Of a stretch of DNA of 33,968 nucleotides, positions 26,476-29,400 are shown in pieces. The translations under genes and the position numbers were made by a program. The stretch is from assembly GCA_002167365.1 (NCBI GenBank), contig NHCU01000045.1, positions 32,054 through 66,021 on the forward strand, in the 5' to 3' direction. The notes beneath the pieces were generated by a model, which worked only from the letters and a program-made list of their open reading frames with translations, was not told where the DNA came from and did not search any database. The stretch comes from Betaproteobacteria bacterium TMED41. GTDB taxonomy: Bacteria > Pseudomonadota > Gammaproteobacteria > Burkholderiales > Burkholderiaceae_A. Each line of letters starts with the position of its first letter. Position 1 is the stretch's first letter.

Positions 26476-26592
26476 TTAAGAATTTATTTCGTTAGTAAAT
26501 GAAACTTGCCCTGCAAAAGTTTCTTTTATATCAACTGAAAATAAAATTATAAATATAACAAAATATGCTGCCGCGTACTGTTTGATTTTCAT
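26476..26592 (-). CDS. Candidate 38-aa small signal-peptide/membrane peptide (MKIKQYAAAYFVIFIILFSVDIKETFAGQVSFTNEINS)
   Basis: Not in the ORF track (<60 aa). ATG at 26592 with upstream AAGGTG (7-nt spacing), basic N-terminus plus hydrophobic stretch; 14 nt downstream of the 86-aa ORF on the same strand. Confidence 0.45.
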   Translation of the reverse strand: MKIKQYAAAYFVIFIILFSVDIKETFAGQVSFTNEINS

Positions 26593-26606
26593 TTGTGAGC
26601 ACCTTA

Positions 26607-26867
26607 TTAATGGATTTCGTTTTGTGTTCCAGGATTATTAGAAAATAAATTACAAGAATCAACATATAGTTGACTGCAAACATAAGTTAATAGTTGATGG
26701 TTTTCACATTCTGGGTGTGCAATTATTGCCTTCATAATTCCCGGCAGTAATTCAATATCTTCGGATTCAGTGTTATTTTGACTGATTTGATACAAAGTTT
26801 TTAAAGCAGAGGCAATCAATGCTTCAAATGTAGGCAAACTCGAGTCTAAATCTACTTTTACTGTCAT
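26607..26867 (-). CDS. Hypothetical 86-aa protein, divergent from a TonB-dependent receptor and downstream of Fur-like sites
   Basis: ORF in otherwise empty intergenic space; upstream AAGGG-TATTTA-ATG Shine-Dalgarno; no recognised family. Confidence 0.6.
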   Translation of the reverse strand: MTVKVDLDSSLPTFEALIASALKTLYQISQNNTESEDIELLPGIMKAIIAHPECENHQLLTYVCSQLYVDSCNLFSNNPGTQNEIH

Positions 26868-26903
26868 TAAATACCCTTTATTTTTGAAAATTTTTCTTGC
26901 AAT

Positions 26904-26918
26904 TAAGAATCATTCTCA
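26904..26918. promoter_or_regulatory. Fur-box-like site 1 (TAAGAATCATTCTCA)
   Basis: 11 of 14 defined positions of the 7-1-7 Fur motif TGATAATnATTATCA, hand-counted; in the divergent region between the 86-aa ORF and the TonB receptor. Confidence 0.6.
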
Positions 26919-26944
26919 TTATTATTAACAAATAAATTTACAAA

Positions 26945-26959
26945 TGCAAATCATTATCA
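26945..26959. promoter_or_regulatory. Fur-box-like site 2 (TGCAAATCATTATCA)
   Basis: 12 of 14 defined positions of TGATAATnATTATCA; followed by TTATTG, extending the hexamer array. Confidence 0.7.
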
Positions 26960-27034
26960 TTATTGTTTTGTAAAAAAAGCAAGAAATACTAAAAATTAAT
27001 ATCTAAGTAAGTGGGAATGGAAAGTCTTTTTATT

Positions 27035-29170
27035 ATGAGAAACAAGAATTTAAAACTGAAAATAATACCATTGAGTTTGATGTTGGTAATGTCAACCGCA
27101 TTTTCGGATGATGTAATTCTACAAAATATTGAAATAATTGGTGGTAATGAAAAAGCCAAGACACTTCCCGGATCTGGGCATGTTGTTACAAAAAAACAAA
27201 TGCAAATTGAATTAACGGATGACATCAACCAAGTGCTAAAAACTGTGCCTGGAGTATATGTTCGTGAAGAAGATGGATACGGTTTAAGGCCTAACATAGG
27301 TATAAGAGGTGCAACATCCGAAAGATCTGACAAAATTACACTTATGGAAGATGGAGTTTTGATTGCTCCTGCGCCATATTCAAATCCTTCCGCTTATTAC
27401 TTTCCCACAATTATGAGGATGCAGTCGATAGAAGTTTTAAAGGGTGCTCCTCTTCTTAAATATGGACCACAAACGACCGGTGGTGTTGTTAACTTATTAT
27501 CCACACCAATTCCAGCAACAAGATCGGGTAGGCTCTCCACCTTTTTGGGCGAAAACGAGCAACTCAATACACATATATATTTCGGAGATGGAAGCGGGAA
27601 GTTTCAATATTTAGTAGAAGCTGTTAGAAGAGATACAAATGGTTTCAAAGAGATAGATGGACGTTCTAATAAAGACACTGGTTTTGGGATATCTGACTAT
27701 GTTATTAAACTTGGTCTGAATAATGATTCAAACAGTTTCTTATTTAAAGCACAAAGTTCGAGAGAAACTTCCAATGAAACTTATTTGGGTCTTACTGATG
27801 CTGACTATAATGCTAATCCCAACAGAAGATATGCTATGTCTTCAATTGATCAAATGAAAAATGATCATCAAGGATATAGCTTGACTTACTTCCAGGAGTT
27901 GACAGATAACTCCTATTTGGTAGCCACAGCTTATAGAAATGAATTTGCCAGAGATTGGCACAAACTATCAGGCGGTGGTAACTACGTTGATTCAGCAAAC
28001 GGCGGAGATGCAACAGCTCAGGGTCAGCTTGATGGAACAATAGATATTGATTCACTAAATTACAAACACAATAATAGATCTTATGTTTCAGAGGGAATAC
28101 AAGTTAACGCTACATTTGAACTTGCTAGTCACACTGTTGAGGTTGGTATTAGATCTCATGAAGACAGTATGGATCGCTATCAGCCACAAGATTATTACGC
28201 GCAAACAAACGGTTCTTATGTTTATTCAAGCACAACTTCACCAAGTGGCAGTAATAATCGCGTAGAAACTGCTGATGCTACAGCTCTTCATATTGCTGAC
28301 ACATGGCAAGCCACTGATAGATTGCTTGTTAATGCTGTCTTAAGACATGAAGATGTTGAAAGTAGTAGAAAACAATATGGTAGTGATAGAACAACTGTTG
28401 CCAGCTCAAAAAGCAATGAAAGCGATATTTTACTTCCAGGCTTATCATTTACTTATGATGTAAACGACAACATTCAAACGCTTGCCGGATATCACAAAGG
28501 ATTCTCCCCCATAGGTGGCGGAGCTTCATCAGAGCAGGAGCCAGAGGAGAGTGATAATTTTGAATATGGCGCCAGATATAAAAAAGACGACTTCTTTGTT
28601 GAAGGGATTGGTTTTTTCAGCGATTTCTCAGACAAGTCTGAGAATTGTTCTTTGGCATCTCCATGTAGCAATGATGCAACCTCGGGTACTTATGTTACAG
28701 GTGAAGCAGAAATTTCTGGTTTAGAGTTTCAAATACAAAATACTTTTAAAACAGGTAACATGCAAATTCCAGTAAGTCTTGTTTACACTTATACTAAAGC
28801 TGAAATAACCGGAAATAATAATGCGAGTGGGTACGTTTCTGGAGACTTATTAAAGGCTGTTCCCGAAAACGTATTCAGCATAAGAGCTGGTTTTGAACAT
28901 AATTCGGGCTGGGACAATTATGCGATTTTCAAGTACATAGATGAAACCTGTGTCAGTACGGGTTGCAATAGGTCGTCTGACGCCTTCGCTAAAACCGATG
29001 AATTGTTTGTGGTTGATTGGGTTAGCAGGTACGAATACTCATCTAACACAGACCTTTTTTTGAAAGTCGTAAATGTATTTGATAATCAAGCAATAATTTC
29101 GCGCGAACCAGATGGAGCTAGGCCAAATAAGCCTAGGACAATTTCAGCTGGCGTAAGAATCAACTTTTAA
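27035..29170 (+). CDS. TonB-dependent outer membrane receptor, FecA-like (siderophore/ferric citrate type)
   Basis: Signal peptide (MRNKNLKLKIIPLSLMLVMSTAFS), plug domain (VLKTVPGVYVREEDGYGLRPNIGIRGATSERSDKITLMEDGVLIAPAPYS), beta-barrel ending in a terminal Phe. Alternative starts at 27011 (GTG, ORF track) and 27017. Confidence 0.92.
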   Translation: MRNKNLKLKIIPLSLMLVMSTAFSDDVILQNIEIIGGNEKAKTLPGSGHVVTKKQMQIELTDDINQVLKTVPGVYVREEDGYGLRPNIGIRGATSERSDKITLMEDGVLIAPAPYSNPSAYYFPTIMRMQSIEVLKGAPLLKYGPQTTGGVVNLLSTPIPATRSGRLSTFLGENEQLNTHIYFGDGSGKFQYLVEAVRRDTNGFKEIDGRSNKDTGFGISDYVIKLGLNNDSNSFLFKAQSSRETSNETYLGLTDADYNANPNRRYAMSSIDQMKNDHQGYSLTYFQELTDNSYLVATAYRNEFARDWHKLSGGGNYVDSANGGDATAQGQLDGTIDIDSLNYKHNNRSYVSEGIQVNATFELASHTVEVGIRSHEDSMDRYQPQDYYAQTNGSYVYSSTTSPSGSNNRVETADATALHIADTWQATDRLLVNAVLRHEDVESSRKQYGSDRTTVASSKSNESDILLPGLSFTYDVNDNIQTLAGYHKGFSPIGGGASSEQEPEESDNFEYGARYKKDDFFVEGIGFFSDFSDKSENCSLASPCSNDATSGTYVTGEAEISGLEFQIQNTFKTGNMQIPVSLVYTYTKAEITGNNNASGYVSGDLLKAVPENVFSIRAGFEHNSGWDNYAIFKYIDETCVSTGCNRSSDAFAKTDELFVVDWVSRYEYSSNTDLFLKVVNVFDNQAIISREPDGARPNKPRTISAGVRINF

Positions 29171-29262
29171 ACAAATTAGATAACCCCAAAAAAAAATGAT
29201 TTCACGTTTCTTTGGTTCTGCCACTCTTCTCCAGTGAAAAACCGTTCGTAAATCTTTTTTTT

Positions 29263-29293
29263 AACCCGTACTCCCCAATACGGGTTTTTTTTT
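29263..29293 (+). terminator. Rho-independent terminator of the TonB receptor gene
   Basis: AACCCGTA-CTCCCCAA-TACGGGTT perfect 8-bp stem followed by a T tract. Confidence 0.85.
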
Positions 29294-29328
29294 ATTTGCT
29301 TGTTTATAAATACTATATGGTTGTGTGA

Positions 29329-29400
29329 TGCCGTTGGAGGGAATTGAACCCCCGACCTCTCGCTTACGAAGCGACTGCTCTACCCCTGAGCTACAACGGC
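29329..29400 (-). tRNA. tRNA-Thr (anticodon CGU)
   Basis: Minus-strand cloverleaf GCCGTTG-TA-GCTC..GAGC-A-GTCGC-TTCGTAA-GCGAG-AGGTC-GGGGG-TTCAATT-CCCTC-CAACGGC-A; 7-bp acceptor stem pairs; CCA not encoded. Confidence 0.95.

Follow-up and report, generated by a model that had tools for sequence, protein, structure and literature searches.

Sequence comparison shows that two very short open reading frames (ORFs) of Betaproteobacteria bacterium TMED41, ORF86 and ORF38, are genuine genes under selection, and their operator appears to tie them to iron starvation. They lie opposite a TonB-dependent receptor gene in a discrete Fur-type cassette, which is present in some species of the genus and missing from most congeners. 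We consider it probable that the locus is a compact iron-starvation cassette, in which a Fur-repressed receptor is joined by a helical accessory protein, which is optional, and by a tiny peptide that is exported or sits in the membrane. Fur binding, the response to iron, the location of the proteins, and their molecular role in the cassette are what we infer from the features described below.

The window, the whole stretch of 33,968 nucleotides that was analysed, belongs to a MAG (G000) of 1.92 Mb in 79 contigs that is 93% complete. The genomes of the relatives are MAGs as well. The main comparison is with G005, a second species within the genus, which is the marine MAG Betaproteobacteria bacterium TMED100. 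The features of the locus are listed in Table 1.

Table 1. Features of the cassette and its right border, in positions of the window.
Feature	Position	Strand	Basis
ORF38, 38 aa, signal-peptide or membrane-anchor features	26476-26592	-	G005 orthologue
ORF86, 86 aa, predicted mainly helical, no apparent signal peptide	26607-26867	-	G005 orthologue
Fur-type site 1, overlapping 19-bp registers 26899 and 26905	26899-26923	.	13/19 in each register; kept in G005
Candidate promoter of the small genes, TTGCAT-17-AATAAT	26921-26949	-	consensus match; same in G005
Fur-type site 2, overlapping 19-bp registers 26940 and 26946	26940-26964	.	14/19 in each register; kept in G005
FecA-like TonB-dependent receptor, plug and barrel	27035-29170	+	Pfam, PDB match, G005 orthologue
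tRNA-Thr(CGT), right border of the inserted cassette	29329-29400	-	ARAGORN; empty sites in relatives

The earlier note on this DNA took the two small ORFs for real genes, and the comparison with G005 bears this out. Both are found there at full length, in the same order and opposite the orthologous receptor. ORF86 is 63% identical to its orthologue without gaps, and ORF38 is 68% identical. The two ORFs are separated by 14 nt, and Shine-Dalgarno-like sequences precede both of them in both species. By the Nei-Gojobori method (G000 vs G005), pS is 0.62 and pN 0.20 for ORF86, and pS is 0.90 and pN 0.17 for ORF38; since these values come from a single species pair with synonymous sites near saturation and a few ambiguous G005 bases, they show constraint rather than its exact strength. 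Differences at codon positions 1, 2, and 3 number 20, 13, and 37 in ORF86 and 5, 7, and 21 in ORF38. Change in the small ORFs is thus mostly synonymous and points to purifying selection, the lack of which the earlier note had named as grounds for abandoning its proposal. The receptor (pN 0.04) and polA (pN 0.12) are under stronger constraint than either small ORF.

These results bear on two other explanations. Their shortness and the lack of any match to a protein family would suit chance open frames. However, frames, starts, and spacing are kept at full length in the second species with synonymous-biased change, which already contradicts this idea and leaves it next to no credence. The minus-strand transcript might instead be mainly a Fur-controlled regulatory RNA, with the ORFs being secondary. 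There is a precedent in Burkholderia, where small mRNAs under Fur control are known to be sources of sRNAs as well; the sRNA BrrF arises in this way from the mRNA of HemP, a small Fur-linked protein (PMC7377471). A transcript of this kind is nevertheless very unlikely here, given that most of the differences in each ORF are at third codon positions, and neither an Rfam match nor a terminator-like site was found on the minus strand.

The signal-peptide-like features that had been noticed in ORF38 are a KIK stretch, a hydrophobic core (Kyte-Doolittle 2.4 across 15 residues), and TFA ahead of a possible cleavage site. The tail is short and poorly conserved relative to G005. By its sequence, ORF38 looks like a signal peptide or a short membrane anchor, which suggests an inner-membrane or exported location.

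The two Fur-box-like sites described earlier (26904-26918 and 26945-26959) match GATAATGATAATCATTATC at 13-14 of 19 positions, each in two overlapping registers. The Fur-site scan that the earlier note had called for, done by matching a 19-bp consensus, recovered them as the two double sites of the intergenic region. Among Markov-random intergenic sequences matched in composition, 2% reach a best match of at least 14/19. G005 retains both sites, while the sequence around them drifts. The proposed minus-strand promoter is also present, and its hexamers and spacer are identical in G005. The Fur-type sites overlap this promoter, which is the arrangement expected of a Fur regulon, with a Fur-box-like site over the promoter. 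The intergenic region contains eight promoter-like matches against 4.1 expected, so the exact start sites are uncertain. Similar paired Fur-type sites are found upstream of the receptor in four congeners, where it lies at another locus. Taken from the sequence, Fur control of both the receptor and the small genes is likely. In three congeners (loci L013, L015, and L016), paired Fur-type sites lie between the orthologous receptor and a divergently oriented rhodanese-like gene.

The receptor has the plug and beta-barrel domains of TonB-dependent receptors, with Pfam scores above the cut-offs for both PF07715 (Plug, 57.4 bits) and PF00593 (TonB_dep_Rec, 105.7 bits), and is 90-91% identical in G005. 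The start is listed as GTG 27011, but ATG 27035 is more likely, as the signal peptide starting there aligns with the relative. The description of the receptor as FecA-like stands in part. FecA is the only PDB match in a sequence search and thus the nearest solved structure. On the other hand, the receptor reaches 75.6 bits against the FecA equivalog NF041676, whose cut-off is 1100, and the FecA match begins at the plug, leaving the N-terminal signalling domain of FecA with no visible counterpart. The receptor is followed at 29261-29295 by a strong hairpin that resembles a terminator and has a T run (AACCCGTACTCCCCAATACGGGTTTTTTTTT); it is nearly identical in G005.

Together, the small genes and the receptor form an insertion of about 2.9 kb between polA and tRNA-Thr(CGT), with ispH beyond, in both G000 and G005. 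The site is empty in six other genomes of the genus, in which tRNA-Thr comes no more than a few tens of bases after polA, with ispH next. Measured against the congeners, the cassette counts as an insertion; either a gain here or a loss elsewhere may account for it. Flanking repeats were looked for at the insertion borders and not found. Four of the six genomes carry the receptor elsewhere (62-64% identical), opposite the rhodanese-like gene or after another gene, and lack ORF86 and ORF38. No receptor match was found in the remaining two genomes, both of which are incomplete. On the co-occurrence that the earlier note had asked about, the small ORFs are found with the receptor in two of the eight genomes and are absent from the other six. 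Since the receptor is kept without them in four congeners, the small proteins could at most be its optional partners. The idea of iron-linked receptor partners thus holds as far as the ORFs are under selection and the Fur-type operator and promoter are kept, and it is weakened by the receptors that stand alone.

ORF86 gave nothing above chance in sequence searches against Pfam, NCBIfam, PHROGs, or the PDB. Apart from its own matches, searches covering 399 genomes from the order and 369 from the class gave chance-level matches only, and neither the first genome-contig scan nor a viral-contig scan gave a relative. Weak genome matches (L003, L017, and L021) contain internal stops or run antisense to other genes, and were set aside as chance. 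A tblastn search of plasmids returned only matches with E=7 inside an ornithine decarboxylase gene. AF2 predicts helices at residues 14-29, 35-50, and 58-76 with moderate confidence (mean pLDDT 73.5). A Foldseek comparison of this model with the PDB, which the earlier note had suggested, gave no significant match.

A family of three-helix proteins in iron and heme operons of Burkholderiales (alignment A4) offers a distant point of comparison. A search with a consensus sequence led to this family, and the retrieved sequences alone serve as evidence. Members came from 29 of 300 genomes in the order, and the family pattern is roughly L.AA.LYLM....CP..A..I..HL..LA..P....LR..C..L...W. A Trp in helix 3 is present in 19/19 members, a Cys-Pro before helix 2 is usual, and many members have a C-terminal His. 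AF2 gives a confident three-helix fold (helices 11-28, 31-45, and 54-75; mean pLDDT 87). The likeness of this model to the MIT domain in Foldseek against the PDB (E 0.7) is not significant and was not taken as homology. Within stretches no longer than 15 kb, iron markers, namely TonB, ExbB/D, Bfd, Bfr, TonB-receptor, PepSY, HemS-like, or HemP-like genes, are present at 22/30 A4 loci (L054-L083) vs 0/20 control stretches taken from a subset of these genomes; the marker set was derived from the A4 loci, so the loci that supplied markers match by construction. The names HemP, HemS, Bfd, and PepSY for these neighbours are readings of the sequences and not profile results. An iron-linked small-protein family thus recurs in many Burkholderiales. 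It is described by no Pfam or NCBIfam model and is newly exposed here, and cultured relatives offer a way to test it. Searches of plasmids with the consensus and two members gave nothing usable, and the A4 profile gave only chance-level matches in the window's own taxonomic family. Two loci (L055 and L058) have two copies each. At the heme-type loci L071, L075, and L077, the A4 ORF adjoins another small protein, about 90 aa long and with paired Cys (like ...EHCAGCEIMHLHIGAFTLRMKPVAL...); L070 and L077 also match this protein.

ORF86 shares with the A4 family its length, an N-terminal PTFEAL.ASAL stretch, the C-terminal His, and the three-helix plan, the last judged by helix boundaries rather than by superposed coordinates. 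It also lies in an iron-uptake neighbourhood, opposite a TonB receptor. The Trp and the Cys-Pro are found in neither ORF86 nor its G005 orthologue. Against the A4 profile, hmmsearch gives E values of 3.4-3.8 and hhalign gives a P of 0.0078 and a probability of 5%, both short of accepted thresholds. In a custom glocal alignment, none of 6000 shuffles scores as high as ORF86, yet 5/2206 natural translated-frame windows do, and its score of 37 compares with 99-225 for true members withheld when the profile was built. ORF86 resembles the family only weakly; we do not claim membership, yet it may work in a similar way. For the role in uptake, regulation, or coupling that the earlier note had suggested, this weak likeness is the sole further lead. 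It is conceivable, if somewhat doubtful, that ORF86 is an outlying member of the A4 family, that this family, possibly heme- or iron-sensing, goes with TonB/ExbBD, Bfd/Bfr, and heme uptake genes across Burkholderiales, and that ORF38 is the membrane partner of ORF86 in this lineage.

How the small genes relate to the receptor is the main point on which explanations differ. They might be iron-starvation genes with a function unrelated to the receptor, such as iron sparing or stress, that merely share the operator region. The four congeners with a receptor and no small genes are in line with this, as is the lack of a hemin phenotype upon deletion of the two uncharacterised proteins of a Stenotrophomonas operon (PMC9241770). 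However, in both species that carry them, the small genes and the receptor occur together at one inserted site, and we regard an unrelated function as rather unlikely. The iron-starvation cassette is favoured because of the orthologues and their synteny, the synonymous bias, the kept Fur-type sites and promoter, the sites in congeners, the discrete insertion, and the weak likeness to A4. It is weakened because the small genes are found in two of eight genomes, the receptor is alone in four, the likeness to A4 is below threshold, with the Cys-Pro and the Trp absent, and all these genomes are MAGs. In such a cassette, Fur would occupy the two overlapping double sites when iron is plentiful, silencing the receptor and the divergent two-gene transcript, and scarcity of iron would allow expression of both. 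ORF86 would most likely serve iron uptake as a small helical protein of the cytoplasm, either as an accessory or as a regulator, much as the three-helix proteins of TonB/ExbBD, Bfd/Bfr, and heme operons would in other Burkholderiales. ORF38, made together with ORF86, would most likely be a tiny inner-membrane or exported peptide.

The locus can be compared with known systems. The receptor is like FecA in having it as the sole solved-structure relative by sequence, and unlike it in the equivalog score and the signalling domain. ORF86 resembles HemP/HmuP in being small, Fur-linked, and next to a TonB receptor. Unlike HemP/HmuP, it has no match to Pfam hemP (PF10636), on which ground it was rejected as a member, and it is predicted to be helical. 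The hemP-hemA-smlt0796-smlt0797 operon of Stenotrophomonas maltophilia is a Fur-controlled heme-receptor operon, in which one of the two uncharacterised proteins has a predicted signal peptide (PMC9241770). That operon runs in a single direction and contains HemP and a heme receptor, whereas the present locus is divergent and HemP has no Pfam match anywhere in the genome. Both are Fur-type TonB-receptor loci with two uncharacterised proteins, one with and one without a predicted signal peptide.
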